From contig JACQFS010000065.1 of NCBI GenBank assembly GCA_016199935.1, positions 1 through 32,327 of the forward strand: 32,327 bases of DNA, read 5' to 3'. A model generated the notes under the pieces. That model did not search any database, had not been told where the DNA came from, and worked only from the letters and a program-made list of their open reading frames with translations. The position numbers and the translations under genes were made by a program. This DNA comes from Verrucomicrobiota bacterium. Lineage in GTDB: Bacteria; Verrucomicrobiota; Verrucomicrobiia; Limisphaerales; JACQFS01. Positions 13,485 to 32,180 of this stretch are shown here, piece after piece (position 1 is the first letter of the stretch; each line of letters begins with the position of its first letter).

Positions 13485-14724
13485 ATGAAAAGCAACGGGC
13501 GCATCTTCATCAGCTACCGGCGCGACGGCGGCGCGGACATGGCAGCGCCTGCTGCGGGATCATCTTCAGTCCCGCGGCTTCAACGTCTTCATGGACGTGG
13601 AGGACCTCAAGAGCGGGCGCTTCAATGAGGCGCTGCTCAACGAGATTGATTCATCCACGGACATGATTGTCGTGCTCTCGCCGGGCAGTCTTGACCGTTG
13701 CTTTCAGGAAGGCGACTGGCTGCGCTGGGAGGTGGCCCATGCGATCGCGCGTGGAAAAAACATTGTAACCGTCATGCTGCGCGGCTTCGCATGGCCGACG
13801 GAACCGCTGCCGGAGGACATCCAGCAACTGCCTTACTTTCAGGGCGTGGAGCCGTCGCACGCGCTGTTCGGGGCCAGCGTGGACAAGTTGGCCACGCTCC
13901 TAAAGGCCAGGACCTCCTTCTGGAGATCCCGCCACGCCGGTTTGCTGGCCGCTGTTGCGGCAGCGGGTTGTATGGCGGTTGTCGCGGCATTGGCGGTGTG
14001 GTTTTATCGTCCGTCCCAACCCGAAGGCTCCGAGGCAGTGCGGGGAAAGTATTTGTGTTTCGCCCAAGACGATTGGCGGAAAGGCGTCCCGCTCTTGGCT
14101 GAGCAACCCGGTGTTCTTAAAGCTGCCGCCTTGGCCGAAATCCAGAGTGCGTCCAATCAGGTCGAGGTGGCCCGGCTATGGGTTGCCGCGGCCGAAAAAT
14201 TGCCGGCGCCGGACAAATGGCATTGCTACCGACGGGGGCGGTATTGGTTTCGCAAAGCTTTGGAATCCGCCCAAGCGCGTCAGGATTCCAAGCAGATCGA
14301 AGCCCTCAACTCGGAACTAAGCTCGCTGCCGACGCTCAAGGCTTCCTTGAAGATTTCGGGTCAGTCGTTTCATCAGGAGACGCTTGTTCTGCGCCGATCC
14401 TCAATGTCATGGACCACTCACAGCGGAGTGGGGCCATACTTTATCCGTGGAACCGCCGGCGACCTGCCGCCATTAACCTTCGCATACGGCAAAGTTGCCA
14501 CGCGGACATTCGAGCCGGAGGAAGTGCACAAAGTGTTGCCCGAAGGAATTGATTTCAGCACCGCCAAAATGACCCGGCAGCAGCTCGGCGGCAAAACCGG
14601 CCGATATTCCGTCATCGAATTCAAGATCTTGGAGGATGGCGCCGGTATTTCAGTCGTGATGAGGGAAAAGCAGAATTACTTCGATGCGTTCACCTTCGAC
14701 GTGACGATCGAATTCGGACAATAA
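13485..14724 (+). CDS. TIR-domain membrane protein with an apparent one-base frameshift
   Basis: ATG 13485 encodes MKSNGRIFISYRRDGGADMA, a typical TIR start (beta-A FISYRRDGG), but that frame stops at 13628. The +1 frame, open from 13489 to 14724, continues the fold as RLLRDHLQSRGFNVFMDVED and IVVLSPGSLDRCFQEGDWLR, followed by WEVAHAIARGKNIVTVMLRG. Removing one base around 13541-13545 (GGCAG) joins them into a 412-residue protein. E82 in WLRWEV sits where NAD-cleaving TIRs have their catalytic Glu. A TM segment follows (about 151-173), then about 240 residues of unrecognised C-terminal domain outside or peripheral to the membrane. TIR proteins cleave NAD+ or make NAD-derived signals in phage defence. 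The frameshift may be a sequencing error, a broken gene, or real. Without the N-terminus, the first ATG is 13591. It converges with the SLOG-SLATT gene. Confidence 0.8.
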
Positions 14725-14753
14725 CCCTCGGGTCCGGGTTCCCTCCTCATCCC

Positions 14754-16268
14754 TCAATGCGCCTCGGCCGTCTTCGCGACGAGATGCCACTCGGTCAGTT
14801 CGTCGAGCAGCACCTCCTCGACGGCCTCCACCGCCTGCGCCACGCTGGCCGGAGTTTGGAGCGCTTCCAGTTCCACCGCCGTCGTCGCGAGCCGGTGGGC
14901 CATTTCCGGATAACGATGATTGCGCCGGACGCTGTCGAGCACACCCTGCAGGCCGGAGGCGGTCGCGGCCGCCAGTGGCAGAACCAGCGGCAGCAATCGC
15001 ACGGCGAGGTTGCCGGGCACGGTGGCTTCCCATCCGAGGTGGGCGAGCTTGTTCAACAGGGCCGTCCCCACGAACACCGGCGCCGCGAGGGAACACCAGA
15101 CGGCGGTCTTTTTGCAGAACGAGTAAACCTTCGCCGCATGCGTCGCCTGCCGTGCAAAGTAACCTTCCTGCTCGCGGAGCCGGTCGCTCAGATACCGGCG
15201 CTTGAACCCTTCGAGCGAGTGCTCCGGCCCGAACTCCCGGCGGGCGGCCAGGCCCACCGTGACGGCGAAGCGATTCCACTCTGGCGCGTGCTGTTGAATC
15301 AGGGGGCGCAACGGGTCCAGTAGCGGCTGCGTCGCGCGCAGGCTGCGCACGAGCTCCGCGCCGAAGCGGGCCTTGAGCCAGTGCTCGCGGGTGTGCTTGG
15401 AGTGCAAATTCCAGATGAGCCACAATGCCGCCAGCACCATCAGCAATTCCGCCAGCGCGAGCGCCGGGGCGGCCAGGTGCGAAAGCTCGCCCGCGAAGCA
15501 CACCGCCACCGAGGCCACCACGGCCGCCGCCGTGTGCAAGATCATGGCCGACGACGCCGCGCGCCGGAACCGCGGCGCGTGGGCGTTGGCGACTTCGTCG
15601 AGTTCGCCGTGCAACGCCTGCGTGTCCTTGCCCAACGCTCCGCCCAGCGAGCGGCCCTTGCGGGAGGCCGAGTAATCCAGTTCCGCAAAGAGCGGATCGG
15701 GCGCCGGCCACTCGGCGGGGAAATTTTCGCGAGCCACCTGGCCGGTCGCACTGTGAATCCAGATCAGCGGCTTCTTCAGCGCGCGCGCCATCTGCACCGT
15801 CTGCTGGGTTCCGCCCAAGCCGCGCGAAGGCTGGCCGTCCCAGAACGCGATCAGCACATCGCAGCTTCGCAGCATTTGTGCGCTCGCGTCGAAGTAGCAG
15901 TTCGGCCGAACAAAATCCGACTCCGCCACCCGGAGCGTCCCGCCATGGGTTCCCCTTTGCGCCGCGTGGATTTGTTTTTCTGCGCGGGCCCATTCCGACG
16001 GCCCGACGAAATCAGCCCGGAAGTCCGCTGTCGGCAACGGCAGGATCAGGTGAACCGGAAGTTGCAGCCGGTGAGCCAACTCCACTGCCTCGATATCCGC
16101 GCCTTCCGCGATGCTGCTGTAAAACTGCAGGGCTCCAGTCTGCCTCGTGACTTGCTCAATCAACCACCGCAACTCCCGCTCCACGGCGGTTCTGAATTCC
16201 TTGGGGTTGGACACATCGCGGTGGCCCGCGAAGGCTGCAATCCAGACTCCCTGCATGACGGTGCTCAT
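14754..16268 (-). CDS. SLOG-like nucleotide-sensor domain fused to SLATT-like four-TM region
   Basis: The 504-residue protein starts with a Rossmann-like SLOG-type domain (about 5-175). It shows AFAGHRDVS (12-20), SSIAEGADIEAVELAHRL (51-68), VHLILPLP (72-79), a CDVLIAFWDG strand and GGTQQTVQMARALKKPLIWI. This matches SLOG families that bind nucleotides or NAD/ADP-ribose derivatives. Two TM hairpins follow: about 240-260 plus 266-287, and about 388-405 plus 420-440. The segment FKRRYLSDRLREQEGYFARQ before the second hairpin resembles DUF4231/SLATT proteins, predicted pore-forming effectors. A GAGGA Shine-Dalgarno lies 5 nt before the ATG, unusual for this window. Inferred role: membrane effector gated by a nucleotide signal. 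It faces the TIR gene with a 29-bp gap. Confidence 0.75.
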   Translation of the reverse strand: MSTVMQGVWIAAFAGHRDVSNPKEFRTAVERELRWLIEQVTRQTGALQFYSSIAEGADIEAVELAHRLQLPVHLILPLPTADFRADFVGPSEWARAEKQIHAAQRGTHGGTLRVAESDFVRPNCYFDASAQMLRSCDVLIAFWDGQPSRGLGGTQQTVQMARALKKPLIWIHSATGQVARENFPAEWPAPDPLFAELDYSASRKGRSLGGALGKDTQALHGELDEVANAHAPRFRRAASSAMILHTAAAVVASVAVCFAGELSHLAAPALALAELLMVLAALWLIWNLHSKHTREHWLKARFGAELVRSLRATQPLLDPLRPLIQQHAPEWNRFAVTVGLAARREFGPEHSLEGFKRRYLSDRLREQEGYFARQATHAAKVYSFCKKTAVWCSLAAPVFVGTALLNKLAHLGWEATVPGNLAVRLLPLVLPLAAATASGLQGVLDSVRRNHRYPEMAHRLATTAVELEALQTPASVAQAVEAVEEVLLDELTEWHLVAKTAEAH

Positions 16269-20725: not shown

Positions 20726-21283
20726 TTGAAAATCCTCGTCGCCATCACCGGGGCCACCGGCATCCTTTACGCCCAGCGCCTGCTCGACAACCTCGACCCG
20801 CAGGAGCACGAGGTGCATCTGGTGCTCTCGAATTACGCGCATCAGGTCATCGCCGAGGAGTTGCCGGAAGGACTCAAGCTCCGGCCCGGCGTGCAGCAGC
20901 ACAGCCTCAAGAGCATGAACATGCCCTTCGCCAGCGGCTCCAATCCGCCCGACGCGATGGTGGTCATCCCCTGCACGATGGGCACGCTCGGCCGCATCGC
21001 GCACGGCTTCAGCGAGGACGTGCTGCTGCGCAGCGCCGACGTGGTGCTGAAGGAAAAGCGCAAGCTCATCCTCGTCCCGCGCGAGACGCCGCTGAGCCTG
21101 GTGCATGTGAAAAATTTCGAGCTGCTGCTGCTCGCGGGCGCGACGATCCTGCCGGCGAACCCCTCCTACTACACGCGCCCGACGACGGTCGTTGAGGTCA
21201 TTGACACCGTCGTCTCCCGCGTGCTCGACCACCTGGGCGTGCCGAACAAACTCGCGCCGCGCTGGCAGGAGGAGAGGGAGTAA
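20726..21283 (+). CDS. ubiX: UbiX-family flavin prenyltransferase
   Basis: The 185-residue flavoprotein matches UbiX/Pad1 in length and motifs: ILVAITGATGILYAQRLLD, DAMVVIPCTMGTLGRIAHGF, KLILVPRETPLS and GATILPANPSYY. The family joins dimethylallyl phosphate to FMN to make prenylated FMN, the cofactor of UbiD-type decarboxylases. The start is TTG. The next gene, a UbiA-like prenyltransferase, overlaps by 1 nt (TAATG), and mqnE lies on the other side of the giant gene. The pair therefore probably serves menaquinone formation by the futalosine route, where UbiX-, UbiD- and UbiA-like enzymes act late. No UbiD gene is in the window. Confidence 0.93.
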   Translation: MKILVAITGATGILYAQRLLDNLDPQEHEVHLVLSNYAHQVIAEELPEGLKLRPGVQQHSLKSMNMPFASGSNPPDAMVVIPCTMGTLGRIAHGFSEDVLLRSADVVLKEKRKLILVPRETPLSLVHVKNFELLLLAGATILPANPSYYTRPTTVVEVIDTVVSRVLDHLGVPNKLAPRWQEERE

Positions 21284-22197
21284 TGTTCCGCACGGTCGCC
21301 AAGTGGGCTTCCTTCGTGAAGTTCTCGCACACCATTTTCGCGCTCCCCTTCGCGCTCGCCTCGATGGTCGTGGCCGCCCGCGACACGCGCGGCTGGCCGG
21401 GCTGGGAAAAATTCCTGCTCATCCTCGCCGCGATGGTCTGCGCGCGGACGTGCGCGATGGCCTTTAACCGCATCGTGGACCGGAAATTCGACGCGATGAA
21501 TCCGCGCACGGCGGGGCGGCACCTGCCGGCGGGGCAAATCTCGCTTTCCACGGCTATCGCATTTTGTGTCCTCAGCGCGGCGGGGCTGGTCGTCGCCAGC
21601 TTCTTCATCAACCGCATCTGCTTCTACCTCTCACCCGTCGCGCTGTTTTTCGTCTGCTTCTACTCGCTGACGAAACGCTTCACCGACTACACGCACGTGT
21701 GGCTCGGCCTCGCGCTGGCGCTCGCGCCCATCGGCGCGTGGCTGGCGGTGCGGGACATGGACGCCTTCACGACGTGGTGGCCGATGCAGGAAAGTTTTCT
21801 GCTGCCGCTCCTCCTCGCCGTAGCCGTGGTGTTCTGGCTCGTGGGCTTCGACCTCATCTACGCGCTGCAGGACTACGAGTTTGACAAACGCGCCGGGCTG
21901 CATTCGCTCGTCGTCGCGTGGGGGCCGAAGAACGCGTTGCGCGCGGCGTTCCTCGCGCACCTCGTGATGTGGATGCTGCTGTTCGGCTTCGGGCTGCTGT
22001 CGCGGTTCCGGTTCGCCTACCTGGTCGGGATGCTCATCATCGGCGGGAGCCTGGCGTTCGAGCATTTCCTCGCGCGGCGGCGGAGCATGAACTGGGTGCA
22101 GAACGCTTTCTTCCGGCTGAACGCGCTGGTGAGCTTGGTGTTCCTGATCGTGACGGTGACGGAAGTGCTGCTGCCGGGGTTCCGGTTCAATCGGTGA
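21283..22197 (+). CDS. UbiA-like membrane prenyltransferase (MqnP-like)
   Basis: The 304-residue integral membrane protein has about nine TM segments and the two Asp-rich motifs of UbiA enzymes: NRIVDRKFD (62-70) and DLIYALQDYEFD (190-201), which bind Mg2+ and the polyprenyl diphosphate. The phrase KFSHTIFALPFALASM near the start is typical of the MqnP/UbiA group in bacteria with the futalosine pathway. The likely reaction is prenylation of the naphthoate (or related) ring of the menaquinone precursor. Translation is coupled to ubiX by TAATG. The stop is 12 bp from the stop of the convergent giant gene. Confidence 0.93.
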   Translation: MFRTVAKWASFVKFSHTIFALPFALASMVVAARDTRGWPGWEKFLLILAAMVCARTCAMAFNRIVDRKFDAMNPRTAGRHLPAGQISLSTAIAFCVLSAAGLVVASFFINRICFYLSPVALFFVCFYSLTKRFTDYTHVWLGLALALAPIGAWLAVRDMDAFTTWWPMQESFLLPLLLAVAVVFWLVGFDLIYALQDYEFDKRAGLHSLVVAWGPKNALRAAFLAHLVMWMLLFGFGLLSRFRFAYLVGMLIIGGSLAFEHFLARRRSMNWVQNAFFRLNALVSLVFLIVTVTEVLLPGFRFNR

Positions 22198-22209: not shown

Positions 22210-25200
22210 TCACGGCGCGAGGATGGCGCGGTAGTTCCGATTGGTCACGCCGCTGACGGAATCGGTGACGTTCATCGGCGTGGTGGTCATCAGCACGTTG
22301 GACCAGTCGAACCAGCCGTTGAAGTTCGTCGTGCGCTGGACGCGGTAGGTGAGGCCAATTTCGCCGCCGAGTTTGAGCACGAACAAATTGCTCACGAGTG
22401 ACGCGGGCAGGAGCGACGGCGGCGGGTTCGGCACGAGCGGGTCGGTGCCGAGGAGATATTCCTGCAAGTTCGTGAGGCCGTCCCCGTCGGGATCGCCTGC
22501 GCCGTTTTGCGACGTGGTGTTGCCGAAGTGGAGAATTTCCCACGCATCCGGCAGGCCGTCGGCGTCCTCGTCGTCGGTCACCACGCTGCGGCCGTTCATC
22601 GTGAAGCTGAACGGCACGGGCGACGCGGTGGTGTTCGTGAAGAGAAGGTAGTAGGCCTGCGACGGAATCCACGGCCAGTTGTTCGGGTTGAGGAGGTATT
22701 GATTGATCGTGCTGTTGGCGCCGCCGCCGGAAGTATAGTGCTGGCTGGCGAGGATGGGCACGGTGCCCTGCTCCAGAATGACGGTCATGCCCGACGGATG
22801 CACCGAGGTGCTCTTCCACCGCGCGGCGTCGCCGGGAACATCCACGCGCGCGAGCAGGGTGCCGTTGGCCGGGAGCGTGTTGGTGAGGAAGCCGCCGTAG
22901 AACGGAATCACGTTGGTGACATTCAACGCGCCGCCGTTGGTGCTGGTGCTGAGCGAGAAGGTCGTGTCGTTGAGCGACCACACGCCGAGGAAATAATTCG
23001 CGCCGGGCCGCAGCGGCGGCGTGGTGAGGTTGAGGGTGCCGGGCGAATCGAAGCGCGAATAGGGGCCCTGGTTTTTCAAGTCGGTGTTCCACGTCGCGGC
23101 ACCGTTCAGGTTAAAAGGATTGTCGTAGTCGAGGGGGGAGCTCTGGTCGCCGGGCGGCACGGAGTCGCGCACGAACACACGCGCGCCGCCGAGCGAGCGC
23201 GAGAAATTCACCGCGAGGTTCGCCGGCGCGTTGCTCGGCACGGCGATGCGGTAGTAACGCCAGTCGCCGCCGGCGACGCTCTGGTTCGTGGCGAGGCCGC
23301 CGTCGAGCGCGAGGTTTTGCACGAGCGCGTTGGTGACGGGATTGCCGCACGCGAGGCGGAGCCGGTAGCGGCAGTTGGAGCCGCCCGAGGCGTGGACGGC
23401 GATGACCCACGTGCCGGGCGGCAGGCCGGATTCGTAGCGGCCGTTGAGCGGAATCCAGTTGCCGTATTCGGTCGTCGTGCCCGTGAGCGAGCGGTCGAAG
23501 ATCGAGCCGCCGGTGCCGCTCGCGTTGTGCGTGAGCGTCGGGGCGTTGGTCTGGCGGAGGTAAAGATTCGGATTGCCGCTGATGGCGTCGAGCTCGGTGC
23601 GCAGCAGGCCGGCGTTGTTCGACGGCACGATGACGGCGTAGTAGTGGAACGTGTTGTCCGCGAGGTCCACGCCGCGGTCGCCGGGGAGCGCGACGCCGTT
23701 CGTGTCCGTGCCGGTGTCGCCGATCTCGGGCAGCGCGAGGCCGGGCGCGACGTTCGTCTGCGCGACGGTGGGCATGACGAACGGCACGCGCTGGAGCGAG
23801 TTGGTGGTGAAGCCGCGGCTGGTCAGGGTGAACGTCGTGTTGCCGCCGCCCTTCACTTCGAGATACCAGACGCCGTTCGTGAGGAACGGCGGAACAATCA
23901 ACCCGCTGCCGGTGATGTAGGAAGTCTGATCGCCGGCGCCATCCTCCGGCGGAAGATTTTTGCGCGCGCGCACCGAGGGCGTGCCGCTGGTCGAGGTGAG
24001 GTCCAGCCGCCAGCCGAGCACGGCGGCGGGGCCGAGATTTGTAGGCACGACGACGCGGTAGTAGGCGCGCTGGGTGTCGGCGAGCACGCCGGTGGCGACG
24101 TTGGTATTGCCATTGGTGTTGAGTTCGCTGCTGAAATTCAAATCGGGCGCGAAGAGCTGCCGCACGCGCAGCGTGGCCGTGGCATCCGGCCCGCCGGCGC
24201 ACGCGCCGGCGACGCCCTGCGCGTTCACGGTCACGCTGTAGGAACCGCCGACGGGATTGGGAACCGTGACGAGGCCGGCGGACGAGTAGCCATAGTTCTG
24301 CCCTCCTTCGCTCCCGGCGTAGTCGCACGCAAAAATCACCGCCCAGGCGGCGGCCACCGTCTGATTCGTCTGGCCCATCGTGAAGGCGGGAATGCCCGTG
24401 ACATTTTCCAGCCGCACCTCGAGCGCGACCGCATTAGACGGCAGGGTGAAGAGGTGCGACGCGAGATCGCCGGCTTCGAGGAAGTTGGTGCGCACGAGGT
24501 CCGCGACGCCGGCGGTGCCGAGGTTCGTCACCGGCAAAGTGCCGAGGCTGGCGATGCTGAAGCCGGTCGAGTTCGAGCCGTAGCGACTCAGCCCGATGGA
24601 GGGATTGACGCCCTCGCTGACGACGCCGATGAAATAAGTTCCGGGCGTGATGTTCGTCGCACCGACGGGCGGGAGCACCGCGTAATGCTCGTTGCCCGGC
24701 TGCTTGTTGCGGTGCCCGCCATTCGGGTTGCCGCTGATGGCGCCGCCGGAGACGACGTTCGGGATGAACTCGCGGTTGACCAGCAGCATCGCCTCGCCGT
24801 TGGTGGGCGCGAGGCGCACGCGCCAGCTCGGCGTGTTGCTCGGCACCACCACGCGGAAATAGGTGGCGTCGCGCACGGGCAGGGCCACGATGTTCGTCGT
24901 GCCGCCCGCGCCGGAGAAACTCAGGTCGCGCACGAGGATGCTCTGGTTCGTGCCGATGCCGCGGCTCTGCACGCTGTAACTGGTGCCGCCCGTGCCGTCA
25001 TACACGCCGATGTAATAGGAGCCGGGCTCGAGCGGATTGCCCATGCCGGCCGACAGCGTGGCGATGTGCGTGTTGGCGCCGTCGGGGCCGGAGGTGTATT
25101 GCGACCAGTCGCCGTCCACCGTCCACCGCGCGCCGCTCGGCCAGTTGGTGTCGTTGTTGCGGCCAAAAGTGTTTCCGCTGGCGGTGTCCGGCAGCGTGTC

Positions 25201-28200
25201 GCGCTGCACGACCATCACCGGCGTGTAGGTGTTGGCGTTCACCATCCGCAATTCCCAGCCGAGCGGGCCGGCCGGCACGGTGACGTGGAAATAGCGCCAG
25301 CTTCCCGCGTTCTGATTCGTGATCGCGGCCGTGCCGCCGTCGAACGTCAGCTCCGTCGCCGTGACCGCGTGGATGCGGAACGTGAAGCCGGCGTTCGGGG
25401 CCGGATTGAAGCCGCCGTTGTCCCACGCGCTGACGGTGACGCTGTAGAGCCCGTTGCTCGGGCTGGCGAGCGTGATGAGGCTCCCATTGCGGATCGTGGC
25501 CCCCTGGCCACCCTCGCTGCCCACGTATTCGGAAGCCGAGTAGCCCCAAAATGGCCCGACGATGCGATCTATCATCCGCTCGGACATGTCCGGCGCGCCG
25601 GTGATGTTTTCCAAACTCAACTCGACGCTCAACGTGTTCGACGGAACGGTGAACTGATACGCCGCGAGGCTGCCGCCAGGCAGCGCGTTGGTGTGGAGCA
25701 AATCCACCGCGCTCACCGTGCCGAGGTCGAGCACCGGCAAAGAGCCGAGGCTGCTGAGGGTGTAGTTGACGCTGTTGGAGCCGATCTGGCTTCCGTTCGG
25801 AATGGGGCCGATGCCCTCGCCCACGACGGCGAGGTAATATGTGCCCGCCGCGATGTTCGTCGCGCCGTCGGGGGCGAGCTGCACGAATTGTTCGTCGCCA
25901 ATTTTTTGCTGCTTCCGGCCGCCGCTGAAATTCTGCGTGTTGCCGTAGCCGCCCAACTGCGCCGCGGTGCTGGGCAGCGCGCCCCGTTGCACCAGCAACA
26001 GCGCGTCGCCGACACTGTTGGTCAGCCGCACCTTCCAGCTCGGCGTGTTGCTCGGCACCGTCACGCGATAGTAGGCCGCCTCGCGCGTGGCGAGGTTCGT
26101 GCCGTTCGTGCTGCCGCCCGCGCCGGAGAAATTCAGGTCGAACACGGGAATGGTGAGGTTCGTGCCGATGCCGCGGCTTTTCAGCGTCCAACTCGCGGCG
26201 CCCGGCGCATACACGCCGATGAAGTAAGTGCCCGGCTCGAGCGGATTGCCCATGCCCATCGCCATCATGTTGACGTGGGCGGCCGAGCCGTCCGCCTCGA
26301 AGTTGTAGCCCGTCCAGTCGGGGCCCGCCCCCACTTGATAGGTGCTTGGCCAGTTGGTTTGGTTCAGCCCCATGTTGTAGGTGCCCGGTGGCAGCACGTC
26401 GCGGCAGACATACATCTGCGCCGGGGTGTTGGAAACGTTCACCAGCCGCACGTCCCAACCCAGCGCATTGGTCGGCACGGTCATCTGGAAATACCGCCAC
26501 GAGGTCGCCTCCTGATTCGTCACGGAAAGGACCCCGCCGTCGAACGCCACCGCGCCCGCGGTGACCGGATGAATGCGCACGACGTGGCTCGCATTGGTCG
26601 GGTTGCAACTGTCGTCCACGCTGGCGAACACCGTCATCGAGTAGGTGTCCGCCACGGGGTTCGCGAGGGTCACCAGGTGGTCGTTCACGTAGGTGTAAGT
26701 GTGCCCGCCCTCAAAAGTGGAGATGTCGCAGAAGCTGGCGAGCACCGGGCCGACGATGCGGTCAATCTGCCGCAGCGCGAAGCGCGGATTGCCCGTGCGA
26801 TTGTCGAGCCGCACCTCCATCGCCTGCGTGTTGGTCGCGACGGTGAAGCGATACGCGGCCAGTTCGCCGGCCTCGAGCGAATTGGTGCGGAGCAAATCCA
26901 GATTGGTCAAGGTGCCGAGGTCCGTCACCGGCACCGCGCCCAGACTGGCCAGCGTGTAATCGCTGCTGCCCGTGCCGATGCGGCCGAGGCTCGAGTCCGG
27001 CCCGACGCCCTCGCTCACCACCGCGAGATAATAAGTCCCCGCCGCGATGTTCGAATAAGTATCATACGGCAGCAGTGCGAAATGTTCGTTGCCCGGCTTC
27101 TGCATTCGCTTGCCGCCGTTGCCGCCGGCGCCCACCGAACCACCGTTGATGACATTCGGGAGAAAATCCTTCGCCACCTGGAGCAGCGAATCGCCCGCGG
27201 TCGCGGTGAGTTTTACCTTCCAACTCGGCGTGTTGCTCGCGATGACGACGCGGAAGTAGGCCGCCTCGCGCGCGACGAGGCCGGTGAGATTCGTCGTGCC
27301 GCCCGCGCCGGAGAAATCCAAATCGCGAATCGGAATCGCAAAGCCCGGCCCGATGCCGCGGCTCTGGAGCGTGAAGCTGCTCGCGCCGCTGCCGTCATAC
27401 ACGCCGACGTAGTAGGTGCCCGCCTCCAGCGGCTGGTTCATGCCCATCGCGAGCGTCTGCACGTGGCCGGCCGCGCCCGCCGGCGTGTTGGCGTAGCCGG
27501 TCCAGTCCGCGCCGGCGGCCCAGCTCGCGCCGGTGGGCCAGTTGGTGGAGCCGCCGGGCGAGAAGCTCGTGCTGAGCGCGGCCGGCAACTGGTCGCGCCG
27601 CACGACCATCCCCGGATTGCCGGCGGTCACGTTCACCAGCCGCAGGTCCCAGCCGAGCGTGTTCGTCGGCACATCCACGCGGAAATATTTCCACTTGCCC
27701 GCCGGCTGGTTCGTCACGCTCACGCTCGTGCCCGCGCCGGAGTCGAACGTGATCAACTGCCCGGTCATCTCGCTGCCGGTGAGGATGAAATTTGTCAGCG
27801 CGTTCGTCGGCGAATACACCCCGATATACCAGATGTCCGCCTGATGCCCCGGCTGCTGGAGGAAGCCGTTGGTGTTGGACAAGTCCACGTAACCGAGCGT
27901 GGTGTATCCGTAGCTGCCGTCGGTGTTGCGGAAATTCCACCGGCCCGGCACGGCGTTCTGGCGCAGTGCGATCTCGGTGTTCGTCGGCTGATTGGCGAGT
28001 AGCAGCTCCCAGCCGAGCGTGCCGAGCTGCTGCGCGATGTTCGGCACGCGGTAGAAGCGCCACCCTGCGCGGTTGGGCGCGTCGTTGGTGATGCTGAAAA
28101 GATAATTCACGTCGGTGATGATCGGATTGCCGTTGGTGAACGCATTCGTGAACCCGCCGCCGCCATACACCGTCACGTAAAACGTCCCGTTCGCGAGCGT

Positions 28201-29835
28201 CGGCGGCACGAGCGTCACGCTGTCGCCGATCGCGCCCGCCACGTCGGAGAACGCGTCGTTGCGATATTCGTTCGGCACCAGGTCGCGGCGCACGGCGAGA
28301 TTTCCGTCGCCCGCGGTGGGCATGAGATTCAACTGCCACGCGATCTGCTGCACCGGCACCTGCACGCGGTAGGTGAGGTAGGGGAAGTTCGTGGTCGAGA
28401 CGGTGGCGTTGAAGTTCGTCCCGAACGGAATGTCGGTGACGGGCTGCTTGCGCGAATCGAGGTTCAGCGCGACGCCGGGATTGCCCGGCACGCAGACGAA
28501 GTAGGTGCCGTTGAACGTGCCGATCCCCAGATACGGCTCCACCAGCAACATCGCGCGGTCCTGAGTTTGCTCGTAGCTGATCGGATGCGGCACGAAGGAC
28601 TTCTTCACGTAGAGCGTGTTCGTCGCGCCGTTGAGGCCGAGCCGCCACGCGAGCGTGTCGGCCGGCGCGGTCGTTTTGAAAAACGCCATGCCCTCGGGAA
28701 GGATGTTGATGTTCGTCCCGCTCGACGCATCCGCCGCCAGCGGGCCGAGGTCGTAGGCAAACACCTCGCCCGAGAGCAGCGTCCACGTCGCCCCCGGCGT
28801 CGCGCGCACGAGGAGGAACCAGTCCTGACCCGCGGTGAACTGCGACGAGTGCAGCACCATGCCGTCGGAGCCGACGCGCGTGGAACTGAAGCCGAAGTCA
28901 TTCGTCGCCGGCAGGCTGCCGTATTTCAAAAACACATCCGCCTCGCCGCCGAGCACCTTCAGCGCCGTGCGCCACGCGCCGACGCCCGCGTTCTGCGTCT
29001 GGATTTTGAAATAGAAAAACCCGCCGCTCGGATCGGAGTTCGTGAACACCTGCGTGCCCGTCGCCGTCGTGCCGGGATCCCACGTCAGCGTCGTCAGATA
29101 CCCGACCTCGGAGTAGAGCGTGTAGCTGTTCGTCCCGCCGGTGGCGCGCACGCCGACGAAATACGCGCCCGGCGTCGCCTCCGTGTCGGTGTAGGTGACC
29201 GTCGCGTTGGTCGTGCCGATGAATCGTTTGTCGAAGCTGTTCGTGTCCGGCACCGAACCTTTCCGCACGTAGAGGTCGCCGGTGCCGGGGCCGGTGGAAT
29301 TAAGCACCAGCCGCCAGCCGGGTGAGTTGCTCGGGATTTCAATGCGGAAATAATGGAACTGCGTGTCCGCCAGCGCGCCCGTGGTCGTGGACGCCTGCGG
29401 CTTGTTCACGGGCAGCGTGTTCGAGCGCATCCCGGCGATGTTCGTCGCGAACGACACACCGAACGCGTGCGTGGCCGAGCCGGCCGGCGTGCGCACCAGC
29501 AGCCCGTGCGTGCCGGCGGTCAGTTCGGGCAACTGGAGGTTGATCGCATTCGTCACCGACGGCGCGCCATCGAGCTGCGCGATGAAATCGTAGTTCGTGT
29601 CGCTCGCCGTGCCGCCGAGCTTGAGCAGCAGATGCGACCACGCGCCGCCGGAGTTGTTCGTGACGATCAGCGAGAGGTTCGTCGCCGCGGCGTTGAGCGT
29701 GAAGGTGAAGTTGCTCCCCGCCCCCGGCGCGTTGGTGCCGACGAACGACGCCGCACGGCTGGGAAGGTTGGAGGTGAACGCGAGAGACAGCGCAAGCACT
29801 GCTTTCGCCCAATGAGATGACAACCGAGTTTTCAT
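22210..29835 (-). CDS. Giant secreted protein of tandem PPC-like beta-sandwich repeats
   Basis: The protein has about 2541 residues from ATG 29835, with a signal peptide (KAVLALSLAFTSNLPSRAA). It is built from many domains that resemble pre-peptidase C-terminal (PPC) domains, with recurring W-R-v-L, GD-LYVRKG-P and GTYYLAVVSEG phrases. Three long supra-repeats of about 395-405 residues are clear; their SRGIG...DLDFSGAGG units lie near 27352, 26167 and 24955. The C-terminal part has DEDADGLPDAWEILHFG and GDPDGDGLTNLQEYLLGTDP, a calcium-binding-type segment common in verrucomicrobial exoproteins. A final domain YRVQRTTNFNGWFDWSNV ends the chain without a PEP-CTERM signal. An adhesin, matrix or S-layer-like role is inferred. 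The frame is open upstream to 30153, but that part overlaps mqnE and is not likely coding. Confidence 0.9.
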   Translation of the reverse strand: MKTRLSSHWAKAVLALSLAFTSNLPSRAASFVGTNAPGAGSNFTFTLNAAATNLSLIVTNNSGGAWSHLLLKLGGTASDTNYDFIAQLDGAPSVTNAINLQLPELTAGTHGLLVRTPAGSATHAFGVSFATNIAGMRSNTLPVNKPQASTTTGALADTQFHYFRIEIPSNSPGWRLVLNSTGPGTGDLYVRKGSVPDTNSFDKRFIGTTNATVTYTDTEATPGAYFVGVRATGGTNSYTLYSEVGYLTTLTWDPGTTATGTQVFTNSDPSGGFFYFKIQTQNAGVGAWRTALKVLGGEADVFLKYGSLPATNDFGFSSTRVGSDGMVLHSSQFTAGQDWFLLVRATPGATWTLLSGEVFAYDLGPLAADASSGTNINILPEGMAFFKTTAPADTLAWRLGLNGATNTLYVKKSFVPHPISYEQTQDRAMLLVEPYLGIGTFNGTYFVCVPGNPGVALNLDSRKQPVTDIPFGTNFNATVSTTNFPYLTYRVQVPVQQIAWQLNLMPTAGDGNLAVRRDLVPNEYRNDAFSDVAGAIGDSVTLVPPTLANGTFYVTVYGGGGFTNAFTNGNPIITDVNYLFSITNDAPNRAGWRFYRVPNIAQQLGTLGWELLLANQPTNTEIALRQNAVPGRWNFRNTDGSYGYTTLGYVDLSNTNGFLQQPGHQADIWYIGVYSPTNALTNFILTGSEMTGQLITFDSGAGTSVSVTNQPAGKWKYFRVDVPTNTLGWDLRLVNVTAGNPGMVVRRDQLPAALSTSFSPGGSTNWPTGASWAAGADWTGYANTPAGAAGHVQTLAMGMNQPLEAGTYYVGVYDGSGASSFTLQSRGIGPGFAIPIRDLDFSGAGGTTNLTGLVAREAAYFRVVIASNTPSWKVKLTATAGDSLLQVAKDFLPNVINGGSVGAGGNGGKRMQKPGNEHFALLPYDTYSNIAAGTYYLAVVSEGVGPDSSLGRIGTGSSDYTLASLGAVPVTDLGTLTNLDLLRTNSLEAGELAAYRFTVATNTQAMEVRLDNRTGNPRFALRQIDRIVGPVLASFCDISTFEGGHTYTYVNDHLVTLANPVADTYSMTVFASVDDSCNPTNASHVVRIHPVTAGAVAFDGGVLSVTNQEATSWRYFQMTVPTNALGWDVRLVNVSNTPAQMYVCRDVLPPGTYNMGLNQTNWPSTYQVGAGPDWTGYNFEADGSAAHVNMMAMGMGNPLEPGTYFIGVYAPGAASWTLKSRGIGTNLTIPVFDLNFSGAGGSTNGTNLATREAAYYRVTVPSNTPSWKVRLTNSVGDALLLVQRGALPSTAAQLGGYGNTQNFSGGRKQQKIGDEQFVQLAPDGATNIAAGTYYLAVVGEGIGPIPNGSQIGSNSVNYTLSSLGSLPVLDLGTVSAVDLLHTNALPGGSLAAYQFTVPSNTLSVELSLENITGAPDMSERMIDRIVGPFWGYSASEYVGSEGGQGATIRNGSLITLASPSNGLYSVTVSAWDNGGFNPAPNAGFTFRIHAVTATELTFDGGTAAITNQNAGSWRYFHVTVPAGPLGWELRMVNANTYTPVMVVQRDTLPDTASGNTFGRNNDTNWPSGARWTVDGDWSQYTSGPDGANTHIATLSAGMGNPLEPGSYYIGVYDGTGGTSYSVQSRGIGTNQSILVRDLSFSGAGGTTNIVALPVRDATYFRVVVPSNTPSWRVRLAPTNGEAMLLVNREFIPNVVSGGAISGNPNGGHRNKQPGNEHYAVLPPVGATNITPGTYFIGVVSEGVNPSIGLSRYGSNSTGFSIASLGTLPVTNLGTAGVADLVRTNFLEAGDLASHLFTLPSNAVALEVRLENVTGIPAFTMGQTNQTVAAAWAVIFACDYAGSEGGQNYGYSSAGLVTVPNPVGGSYSVTVNAQGVAGACAGGPDATATLRVRQLFAPDLNFSSELNTNGNTNVATGVLADTQRAYYRVVVPTNLGPAAVLGWRLDLTSTSGTPSVRARKNLPPEDGAGDQTSYITGSGLIVPPFLTNGVWYLEVKGGGNTTFTLTSRGFTTNSLQRVPFVMPTVAQTNVAPGLALPEIGDTGTDTNGVALPGDRGVDLADNTFHYYAVIVPSNNAGLLRTELDAISGNPNLYLRQTNAPTLTHNASGTGGSIFDRSLTGTTTEYGNWIPLNGRYESGLPPGTWVIAVHASGGSNCRYRLRLACGNPVTNALVQNLALDGGLATNQSVAGGDWRYYRIAVPSNAPANLAVNFSRSLGGARVFVRDSVPPGDQSSPLDYDNPFNLNGAATWNTDLKNQGPYSRFDSPGTLNLTTPPLRPGANYFLGVWSLNDTTFSLSTSTNGGALNVTNVIPFYGGFLTNTLPANGTLLARVDVPGDAARWKSTSVHPSGMTVILEQGTVPILASQHYTSGGGANSTINQYLLNPNNWPWIPSQAYYLLFTNTTASPVPFSFTMNGRSVVTDDEDADGLPDAWEILHFGNTTSQNGAGDPDGDGLTNLQEYLLGTDPLVPNPPPSLLPASLVSNLFVLKLGGEIGLTYRVQRTTNFNGWFDWSNVLMTTTPMNVTDSVSGVTNRNYRAILAP

Positions 29836-29956
29836 GGCATGAGGTGCCTGTTCCGGCGTTGAACTTTGGGAAGTAAGTGGATCATTGGTTATCAATGTTC
29901 GCCGTCCGTCACAAGCCCAATTTCGTCCGGCGCACGGGTCTGGCTCGGAATCCTCT

Positions 29957-29985
29957 TTGCGCCTTCTCACCTTTGCGCTTAATTC
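29957..29985 (+). promoter_or_regulatory. Candidate mqnE promoter
   Basis: TTGCGC (29957-29962), a 17-nt spacer, TAATTC (29980-29985), then 7 nt to the ATG at 29993. It predicts a leaderless mRNA. It lies in the 157-bp divergent gap between the giant gene and mqnE. Confidence 0.55.
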
Positions 29986-29992
29986 AGCGCGG

Positions 29993-31165
29993 ATGAATTT
30001 CATTCTCCGACACAGCCCGCTGCGCGACCTCCACGACAAGGTGGCCGCGGGCGTGCACTTGTCCGAAGCCGACGCGCTTCGTCTTTTTGAAACGAAGGAC
30101 CTCAACGCCCTCGGCGCGCTGGCCGACTTCGCGCGTGAACGCAAGGTGGGCAACCGCGCGAGTTACATCGTCAACCGCTACCTCAACTACTCGAACTACT
30201 GCATCCTGAGCTGCCAGTTCTGCTCCTTCGCGCGCAAGAAGCGGGACAAGGACGGCTTCGAGTTGACGGCGGAGCAGATGGTCGAGAAGGCGCGCGAGGC
30301 GTTGCGGCTCGGCATCACGGAGCTGCACATCGTCGGCGGGCTGCACCCGTCGCTGCCGTTCAGCTACTACGTGGATTTTCTAAAGGCGCTCCGGGCGCTC
30401 GATGAGCGGCTCCAGTTGAAATGCTTCACCGCCATTGAAATCCTCCACCTCGCGTGGCTGGCGAAAAAGTCCGTGGAGGAAACTTTACGTGAGTTGAAGG
30501 CCGCCGGACTTGATTCGCTCACCGGCGGCGGCGCGGAAATTTTCCGCAAGGAAGTCCGCTCGCAGATCGCCAAGGGCAAGGAGTCCGCCGAGGAATATCT
30601 CGACGTTCACCGCACGTGGCACCGGCTCGGCGGACGCAGCACCTGCACGATGCTCTATGGCCACGTCGAGAGCCTTGCCGACCGCGTGCATCACCTGAGC
30701 CTGCTGCGCGCGTTGCAGGACGAGACGCGCGGCTTCACCGGCTTCATCGCACTGCCGTATCAGCCGGAGAACAACGACATCCCCGTCCACACGCCGCCGA
30801 CCGGCTTCGACTCGCTGCGCACGCTCACCGTCGCGCGGCTGTTCCTCGACAACTTCGACCACATCACCGCGTATTGGGTCGGCCTCGGCCTCAAGCTCGC
30901 GCAGGTCGCGCTCAGCCACGGCGCGGACGACCTCCACGGCACGATCATCGAGGAGCACATTTTCCACATGGCCGGCGCGACCTCGCCGCAGGCGCAGACC
31001 GAGGCGGAAATGGTGAAGGCCATCCGCGAGGCCGGCCGCGTGCCGGTGCAGCGGAACACTTTTTACGAGCCGATCAAGGTGTGGGACGCCATGCCCACGA
31101 CGACTGAAGCTCAAACGCCGCCGGACAAGTCGAAGGTCTTGGAGGACAATCTGGCGACCGCATAA
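29993..31165 (+). CDS. mqnE: Aminodeoxyfutalosine synthase (radical SAM)
   Basis: The 390-residue radical SAM enzyme has the CX3CX2C cluster motif CILSCQFC (C70, C74, C77). Further motifs are HIVGGLHPSLPFSYYVDFLK, FTAIEILHLA, LKAAGLDSLTGGGAEIF, STCTMLYGHVES and LPYQPENNDIPVHTPPT. The HIVGGLHP, FTAIEI and TMLYGHVE combination marks MqnE rather than its paralogue MqnC. MqnE adds the S-adenosylmethionine adenosyl radical to 3-[(1-carboxyvinyl)oxy]benzoate to make 6-amino-6-deoxyfutalosine. ATG 29993 fits the family and the promoter; the open frame upstream from 29885 does not. The C-terminal ~25 residues (TTTEAQTPPDKSK) look disordered. Menaquinone by the futalosine route fits with UbiX/UbiA nearby. 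Confidence 0.95.
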   Translation: MNFILRHSPLRDLHDKVAAGVHLSEADALRLFETKDLNALGALADFARERKVGNRASYIVNRYLNYSNYCILSCQFCSFARKKRDKDGFELTAEQMVEKAREALRLGITELHIVGGLHPSLPFSYYVDFLKALRALDERLQLKCFTAIEILHLAWLAKKSVEETLRELKAAGLDSLTGGGAEIFRKEVRSQIAKGKESAEEYLDVHRTWHRLGGRSTCTMLYGHVESLADRVHHLSLLRALQDETRGFTGFIALPYQPENNDIPVHTPPTGFDSLRTLTVARLFLDNFDHITAYWVGLGLKLAQVALSHGADDLHGTIIEEHIFHMAGATSPQAQTEAEMVKAIREAGRVPVQRNTFYEPIKVWDAMPTTTEAQTPPDKSKVLEDNLATA

Positions 31166-31454: not shown

Positions 31455-32180
31455 GTGTTTGTGACTTTCAACATGAGCACCAGACGATGGTGGGTTTCAC
31501 TCGCGGTGGTATTTTGCCTTCTAGGGGGAGCGGACGCGGCGACGCTAAGCACGACGGTCCAAGGCGTCTCCAGCCAGTTCATTGTCGGCCCCACCGATCG
31601 CGCCGCAGCTCATGCCGTGGACGGCAGCGGTCTGGACACCAACAGCCCTCCGGGCCACACCAGTCAGCCCAATGGATTCATGTGGCTCAACACCGGCGAT
31701 GGCAGTTTCGGTGGCGGGGCCGATCCCGATCCGCCCGGCCAGCTTGCCGACATCACGTTCAATCTGGGCGGGGCCTCTTTCGTGGACAGCTTCCGTGTCT
31801 GGAATTACAACGAACTCAACAATTTCAACGACCGCAGCATCCAGACGCTCACCATTTCAACCGCGGCAAGCGCATCCGGACCGTTCACGCCGCTCATCAA
31901 TGCGAGCAACAGCACCACGACCTTTACCTTTGCCCAGGCGCCGGGCACCAGTGGTTACACCGGTCAACTCTTCACCTTCTCCACGCCGTTTATAGCCGCC
32001 TTCGTGCGATTCGACATCAAGTCGAATTATGACGCGGCCGGAACCGACCACGGATTCGTCGGGTTGGCCGAAATACAATTCTACGGGTCGGCTGTCCCGG
32101 AGCCATCGGTGTGGGTGCTCTTGGGAACGGGCTTGCTGGCGGTTGTCCTCTGGCGGCGTTCACGTCGTGCCGGAGCATGA
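31455..32180 (+). CDS. PEP-CTERM-anchored secreted protein, discoidin-like
   Basis: The 241-residue protein has a signal peptide (WWVSLAVVFCLLGGADA). Its beta-rich body has AAHAVDGSGLDTNSPPGHTS and ADITFNLGGASFVDSFRVWN, which resemble F5/8 type C (discoidin-like) carbohydrate-binding modules. The C-terminus is a full PEP-CTERM sorting signal: VPEPS, the hydrophobic helix VWVLLGTGLLAVVLW and a basic tail RRSRRAGA. An exosortase would cleave near VPEP and release or anchor the protein at the surface; the exosortase gene is not in the window. The start may be GTG 31455 (preferred from the promoter-like pair) or ATG 31473, which also gives a complete signal peptide. Confidence 0.88.
   Translation: MFVTFNMSTRRWWVSLAVVFCLLGGADAATLSTTVQGVSSQFIVGPTDRAAAHAVDGSGLDTNSPPGHTSQPNGFMWLNTGDGSFGGGADPDPPGQLADITFNLGGASFVDSFRVWNYNELNNFNDRSIQTLTISTAASASGPFTPLINASNSTTTFTFAQAPGTSGYTGQLFTFSTPFIAAFVRFDIKSNYDAAGTDHGFVGLAEIQFYGSAVPEPSVWVLLGTGLLAVVLWRRSRRAGA

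Follow-up and report, generated by a model that had tools for sequence, protein, structure and literature searches.

Results

Gene and neighborhood of a giant repeat protein

The window, by which we mean the whole 32,327-nucleotide stretch of Verrucomicrobiota DNA that was analyzed, carries a gene on its minus strand at 22210-29835 (stop codon at 22210, ATG at 29835) that encodes a protein of 2,541 aa, designated here GP, for giant PPC-repeat protein. The open frame extends upstream to a TTG at 30153, in which case the protein would be 2,647 aa. The start at 29835 gives MKTRLSSHWAKAVLALSLAFTSNLPSRAA, which resembles a Sec signal peptide when judged by eye, and residues 1-28 (29752-29835, minus strand) were annotated as a putative Sec signal peptide by eye on the basis of a positive start, a hydrophobic core and SRA-A. 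The chain then continues with a weak sandwich, five PPC modules, three ordered trios of modules designated A-B-C, and four more PPC modules, of which three are clear and one is weak. A TSP3 pair follows, and the last 75 residues form a C-terminal domain (CTD). In total, GP contains about 19 PPC-type sandwiches, of one fold, in a row. On the opposite strand of GP, 22507-28002 (plus strand) is open for 1,831 codons; this frame most likely results from high G+C content and codon use and is not a gene.

Located beside GP at 20726-22197 (plus strand) are a UbiX-type gene and a UbiA/MqnP-type prenyltransferase gene, and on its other side, at 29885-31165 (plus strand), an mqnE gene (TIGR03700, 455.4 bits; cut-off 434.55). 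These flanking genes are probably futalosine menaquinone genes. No shared neighbors were seen by eye around GP orthologues at four loci (L069-L072), and a conserved gene neighborhood was rejected for these loci; the menaquinone genes therefore appear to be incidental. Farther away in the window, at 13591-16268, a SLATT-domain protein (41.7 bits, cut-off 41) is convergent with a 377-aa protein whose start is TIR-like by eye, and the two are possibly a defense pair.

Module layout and repeat statistics

The first-pass annotation had described a repeat protein of about 2.5 kilo-residues with three consecutive supra-repeats of about 400 residues, and this description was borne out. A module profile was built from the nine A, B and C modules of the three supra-repeats, R1 (A1-B1-C1, residues 690-1090, 26566-27768), R2 (A2-B2-C2, residues 1091-1490, 25366-26565) and R3 (A3-B3-C3, residues 1491-1893, 24157-25365), all on the minus strand; all three are supported by the module profile and by identity, and R1 also by an AlphaFold model. 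The supra-repeats are about 400 residues long, with A modules spaced 401 and 400 aa apart, and share 52.3% (R1/R2), 48.5% (R1/R3) and 45.7% (R2/R3) protein identity. At the DNA level the repeat spacing was 1212 and 1185 nt, in agreement with the period proposed earlier. Copies of A, B and C in other repeats were 39-57% identical within a kind and 22-38% identical between kinds; A, B and C are distinct module kinds, and the supra-repeat is an ordered A-B-C trio. Three of the four marker families named by the first-pass annotation occur three times each, namely GAGG[TS]TN at residues 843/1238/1642, [PI]G[ND]E[HQ] at 914/1312/1713 and GTY[YF][LI][AG]VV at 933/1331/1732, but FDGG has two occurrences (1098 and 1498), and FDSG stands in its place in the first repeat. 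A DNA-level check for recent duplication, which had been suggested with the annotation, gave a negative answer: the larger repeated blocks (D1, D3, D4 and D7) were 65-76% identical to the reference copy, so a recent tandem duplication of the supra-repeats was ruled out.

In its first round, the profile identified five modules before the repeats and three after them, seven of the eight with E values of 2.3e-10 to 1.4e-4 and the eighth with an E value of 0.17. After iteration all 17 modules had E values of 1e-21 or less, which is circular. When 50 shuffled copies of GP were searched, 107 matches under E 1 were obtained, two of them under 0.01 and the best at 0.0024. Chance origin of the repeats was rejected by this control, and the eighth module is not significant alone, because shuffled sequences yield so many matches under E 1. 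The five modules before the trios span residues 140-689 (27769-29418, minus strand) and include a stretch at 29143-29358 that exceeds the cut-off of the PPC family PF04151 (27.9 bits), and the three after them span residues 1904-2299 (22939-24126, minus strand). Two weaker sandwiches complete the array. The N-terminal one (residues 24-123, 29467-29766, minus strand) was found by the module profile at E 0.014, with a PF04151 score of 14.4 bits at 29494-29709, under cut-off. The last one (residues 2313-2416, 22588-22899, minus strand) was found at E 0.063 (match 2318-2405), and the orthologue from genome G036 has a called module at the corresponding position.

PPC kinship and absence of an enzyme

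The whole protein matched PF04151 with 77.8 bits (cut-off 25.9; E 1.2e-21), and four stretches passed the cut-off. Single modules on their own were mostly below it, as in R2, where C2, B2 and A2 scored 24.6, 19.7 and 14.6 bits. Within the GP family, 13 of 21 trios matched PF04151 at E ≤ 0.01. An AlphaFold model of the R1 trio, the structure prediction of one supra-repeat that had been suggested with the annotation, showed three beta-sandwiches in a defined relative arrangement, with a mean pLDDT of 89.0 and a pTM of 0.87. Among the best single-domain matches to solved structures, both located on the C module of this model, were 1nqj, a collagen-binding domain of ColG (Z 12.1, with an rmsd of 2.0 for 89 aligned residues), and 5sv5, a PPC domain of Bacillus anthracis (Z 11.2, with an rmsd of 2.5 for 98). 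As modeled, the C module of R1 thus adopts a jelly-roll sandwich as in the ColG collagen-binding domain, and the earlier reading of several PPC-like sandwiches per supra-repeat is supported by the family profile, the predicted fold and the structure matches. A PDB sequence search with the 17-module profile returned nothing at E 0.01, and when whole GP was compared by sequence with solved PPC domains, Vibrio 2luw was matched at E 0.11. Since these sequence links are weak, binding residues could not be transferred from solved PPC domains.

When the full 2,541 residues of GP were scanned with Pfam, neither a peptidase nor any other enzyme family appeared; the matches were PPC, TSP3_bac and a third family with an E value of 0.018. 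NCBIfam yielded nothing above its cut-offs. The absence of a protease domain noted earlier was thereby upheld, and no hidden protease was found by either collection. In the relatives of GP, the enzyme-family scan covered the trios and three tails. PPC domains occur singly or paired on subtilisins (PMC2605481, in excerpt), which corrects the earlier statement that they usually occur singly on proteases; in GP they form a long array. The PPC domains of proteases bind collagen and are not themselves catalytic (PMC8799719 and PMC7426729, both in excerpt). GP resembles these proteins in its profile score and predicted fold, but where the known cases carry one or two PPC domains beside a peptidase (excerpt of PMC2605481), GP carries about 19, in part as ordered trios, and no peptidase. 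GP is most likely a secreted structural or binding protein.

Relatives of GP and turnover of the trios

Matches to the trio region were found in at least six of 58 genomes of the order (the genome of GP itself, G005, G008, G017, G030 and G036), and a short fragment resembling GP residues 380-475 was found in G054. A species-wide genome collection yielded 17 loci, with record titles that included Verrucomicrobia, Verrucomicrobiia, Verrucomicrobiales and Limisphaerales MAGs. GP and 13 relatives share, where readable, a common layout of a PPC block, two to four ABC trios and a second PPC block. Three trios were present in 10 of these 14 proteins, two in one and four in three, and all three proteins with four trios run off a contig end. 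The trios were spaced 392-419 residues apart, and the blocks flanking them were conserved on both sides where readable.

The flanks and the trios differed in their pattern of kinship. Of 95 flank modules, 88 had as nearest neighbor the module that occupies the equal position in a different protein, whereas the nearest neighbor of a trio was a trio of its own protein in 17 of 44. Because flank modules pair by position and trios pair partly within a protein, the trio is the unit that turns over. At locus L162, R1-R2 and R2-R3 were each 75% identical. Positional orthology of the trios had a mixed outcome: the GP trios grouped by protein (support 96/99), but positional grouping was seen when L161 was compared with L168, and likewise within the set G008, L172 and L174.

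Two or three trio-bearing genes lie in tandem at one locus of G030 (L073, contig C385). Trios at this locus were 59-62% identical across genes versus near 29% within a gene, which indicates that the gene duplication came after divergence of the trios. The genome of GP also contains further large PPC-bearing frames (L074-L085), for example of 2,272 aa (C140) and 2,254 aa (C65); five candidates were scored, and no GP-type trio match was present among the matches listed.

The tail of GP ends in a shared C-terminal domain

The tail contains a pair of TSP3-type acidic loops (DEDADG and DPDGDG; 22438-22575, minus strand) that are presumed Ca2+ sites. PF18884 (TSP3) scored 28.6 bits on the tail alone and 20.1 in whole GP (cut-off 25). 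The CTD, the last 75 residues of GP (22213-22437, minus strand), ends in TNRNYRAILAP at the stop codon and was matched by a CTD profile at 22213-22431 with an E value of 1.2e-18. An alignment of 29 CTDs showed that R70 is invariant and that Y31, W42 and Y69 are nearly so (numbering of the first row), with RFYR...P as the usual ending. AlphaFold predicted the TSP3-CTD tail with a pLDDT of 87.6 and a pTM of 0.58, and the CTD in this model has six strands. Its structural matches were FnIII-like and modest, the best having a Foldseek E value of 0.014 and a VIA Z score of 7.5, which is below the level that VIA calls safe and counts against the sorting explanation preferred below. FnIII rows among the matches had Z scores of 6-7, and the Fn3 domains of Pel3/PelI were among the best rows (3b4n, Z 7.2, rmsd 2.3 over 67; 4u49, Z 6.8, rmsd 2.5 over 67). 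At E ≤ 1, the 29 CTDs matched 14 Pfam families, and fn3 (PF00041) was absent from these. The CTD as such is covered by neither Pfam nor NCBIfam: the matches were scattered, each family being matched by one or two of the 29 CTDs (best E 0.0025). A PDB sequence search with the CTD profile gave seven rows, with a best E value of 0.49 and no type IX CTD, a result without discriminating value. All 11 scanned relatives of GP with a readable C-terminus end in the CTD, and in three orthologues InlB-type B-repeats, and in one a LamG domain, are inserted between TSP3 and CTD, which is still last.

Distribution of the CTD in the genome, order and phylum

The CTD profile was made from 29 of 40 tails, 11 having been left out by eye as short, long or odd. 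Tails were taken as seeds if a stop codon lay within 200 aa, those farther away having been excluded earlier; this selection counts against a sorting role, since such seeds could favor terminal copies, but the profile search itself was local and unanchored to the stop. In the 5.03 Mb genome of GP, 79 matches were obtained at E ≤ 0.01. The distance to the stop codon, measured for all 79 and for the relatives of GP, was at most 5 aa in 64 of the 79, at most 15 aa in 71 and at most 40 aa in 74. The remaining five count against a sorting role: two have a distance of 94 and 122 aa, and for three the fetched stretch contained no stop, one of these three lying near the start of its protein. As a control, the 23 PPC matches of the same genome were examined. 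One was not fetched, for three the stretch lacked a stop, and none of the 19 that could be measured lay within 40 aa of a stop. At one locus (L094, contig C114 of G000) the usual arrangement is inverted: a CTD-like domain lies near the N-terminus, directly behind a TSP3 pair and a start that resembles a signal peptide.

A signal-peptide-like start was present by a crude rule in 47 of 65 CTD ORFs versus 15 of 74 other ORFs. The 18 CTD ORFs that failed this rule count against the explanation preferred below; GP is among them, because its ATG lies more than 100 codons from the start of the frame. Besides GP, 53 CTD bodies were usable, and 35 of them were scanned with Pfam. They included chitinase GH18, subtilase, ThuA, sorbosone dehydrogenase, MauG-type peroxidase, YHYH (two), DUF3500, NHL, Ig (including an Ig-array), PKD, LamG, DUF11 and others, and 12 of the 35 had no Pfam family at 1e-5. 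With GP, the 54 bodies fell into 24 blastp clusters, the largest of which had 24 members. As judged from sequence, about 70 ORFs of this genome besides GP thus terminate in the CTD, and the majority of them have export-like starts.

In the order, the CTD was present in 57 of 58 genomes, with at least 13 matches in 53 of them, and in the phylum sample it was present in 37 of 115 genomes; the numbers per genome are lower bounds in both sets. The best TSP3-plus-CTD match in each of 23 other genomes of the order ended within 33 aa of a stop in 19 cases.

Comparison of the CTD with known sorting and secretion systems

A type IX sorting domain is a beta domain of about 75 aa that is carried by dozens of proteins with unrelated bodies and is nearly always last, and the CTD would resemble it in all of these respects if it serves in sorting. 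The two differ in that the profile of the type IX domain (TIGR04183, Por_Secre_tail) matched no CTD of this genome: searched against the whole genome at E ≤ 1, it found no CTD place and one match elsewhere (E 0.325), and it was absent among the NCBIfam families found for 29 CTDs. The T9SS type A sorting domain was rejected as the identity of the CTD for this reason. The SprA models TIGR04189 and PF14349 had no match in the genome, and none in the control genomes either, so these searches carry no information on a SprA-type translocon.

PEP-CTERM/exosortase likewise uses a C-terminal protein label and is present in this genome, but its label is a motif of 24 positions and the CTD is a folded domain. 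The profile search agreed with the earlier observation that GP lacks a PEP-CTERM tail and that a PEP-CTERM protein lies nearby: the latter is encoded at 31455-32180 (plus strand), with a match over cut-off at 32094-32168, and GP, which ends in TNRNYRAILAP, was outside the genome's 10 matches to TIGR02595 at E ≤ 0.01. None of these 10 places overlapped any of the 79 CTD places.

The Fn3 domain of Pel3/PelI offers a precedent for a secretion function of this fold. Loop swaps showed that the type II secretion signal of these enzymes is composite and includes loops 3 and 5 of the Fn3 domain, with further determinants in the catalytic domain (PMC7949064, in excerpt). The likeness of this domain to the CTD is one of fold; the Pel3/PelI domain is N-terminal and the CTD is C-terminal. 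In the genome of GP there are three secretin-domain places, and GspD-model matches are under cut-off, which counts against a secretin route for the CTD. Across 115 genomes of the phylum, the CTD (E ≤ 1e-5) was present in 24 of 28 genomes with GspD over cut-off versus 13 of the 87 others, a co-distribution that is uncorrected for kinship and is taken as a hint. The genome of GP is one of the 13, and all eight genomes without a GspD-type match at E ≤ 1e-20 lack the CTD.

GP also invites comparison with RTX and other giant repeat adhesins, being a giant repeat protein with Ca2+-type loops. It differs from them in that neither Pfam nor NCBIfam found such a family in GP and that its sandwiches are of the PPC type.

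Discussion

GP is a known module in a large new variant, a clear case of PPC sandwiches arranged as a giant array without an enzyme, in which a three-module unit has been duplicated and partly homogenized as a block. The explanation that we consider best, with about an even chance of being right, is that GP is a secreted, non-enzymatic PPC rod and that its CTD serves in export or in sorting to the surface, with a secretin route perhaps recognizing it. The signal peptide would take GP across the inner membrane by Sec, and the roughly 19 PPC-type jelly-roll sandwiches would fold to give a long chain that is itself without enzyme activity. Its middle is formed by three trios (two to four in relatives) that would have been duplicated as units of about 400 residues. 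By analogy to the PPC modules of proteases, the sandwiches may bind an insoluble polymer or matrix, and the rod could then act as a multivalent adhesin or scaffold. The TSP3 calcium hinge and the FnIII-like CTD would serve as its address label. Because the CTD ends about 70 other ORFs with many unrelated bodies, a common machine most likely recognizes it and either carries the proteins through the outer membrane or places them on it. As a first guess this would be a secretin (type II-like) route, because of the Pel3 precedent and the rough co-distribution with GspD.

The body of GP could be read in other ways. It is unlikely, though conceivable, that GP is, in line with the filament or matrix component raised by the first-pass annotation, a subunit of a polymerizing extracellular matrix or filament with the trio as building block; the defined arrangement of the modeled trio (pTM 0.87), the period of 392-419 aa and a copy number that changes trio-wise are in favor of such a subunit, but the conserved flanks and the single CTD per chain fit a single tethered rod equally. 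We consider it very improbable that GP binds nucleic acid or lipid in the manner of SID-1 ectodomains. Tandem jelly rolls of the SID-1 type were the best two-domain structural match, to two trio modules, with Z scores of about 11-13 over 203-270 residues, but the rmsd was 4.0-7.3 and the identity 9-13%, single PPC domains matched as well (rmsd 1.9-2.5), and no membrane part was seen in GP by eye; one common fold is the most likely reason for the resemblance. Least credible of all is a degenerate protease or hidden enzyme, in which the PPC modules would be what remains of a peptidase. Peptidases are the proteins for which PPC is best known (PMC2605481, in excerpt), which would suit such an origin, but Pfam found in GP only PPC, TSP3_bac and the one family at E 0.018, and NCBIfam found nothing over its cut-offs.

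The more serious alternative concerns the CTD, which may be an ordinary FnIII-like ligand-binding or capping domain without a sorting function, GP then being released as a soluble secreted or periplasmic binding rod. This has a considerable chance of being correct, though we lean away from it. FnIII domains are common binders, which tells against the sorting explanation; the CTD has FnIII-type fold matches, a few internal or tandem copies exist, and Fn3-like modules occur in some carbohydrate-active enzymes (PMC7949064, in excerpt). Several observations speak against this alternative: 71 of 79 copies lie within 15 aa of the stop, versus none of the 19 PPC matches within 40 aa, the CTD is attached to bodies of many kinds, and it remains last even where domains have been inserted before it. 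A sorting domain, for instance the one used in type IX secretion, would be expected to show this kind of position and sharing. A broader form of the sorting explanation, in which the CTD marks a new sorting system of Verrucomicrobiota with a dedicated outer-membrane route, analogous and unrelated to type IX, is put forward tentatively and falls somewhat short of an even chance. Such a system would span nearly the whole order (57 of 58 genomes), usually with tens of proteins in each genome, and would use a secretin-linked or a new route.

A search of literature titles and the beginnings of abstracts, which is weak evidence and had no preprints and few subscription papers in its scope, showed among the papers listed no verrucomicrobial CTD of this kind and no description of GP. 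Nor did the searches made find an account of Verrucomicrobiota addressing surface proteins by such a domain. The first-pass annotation had asked how GP is held at the surface, and because its tail consists of a TSP3 pair and a widely shared CTD, there is now a candidate answer. The tail is in this respect more interesting than the body of GP, since along with that answer it offers a testable hypothesis on the whole secretome. A shared terminal domain that has no Pfam or NCBIfam model would allow part of the secretome of a genome to be predicted from sequence, and the CTD makes the placement of proteins outside these bacteria a question that can be tested.
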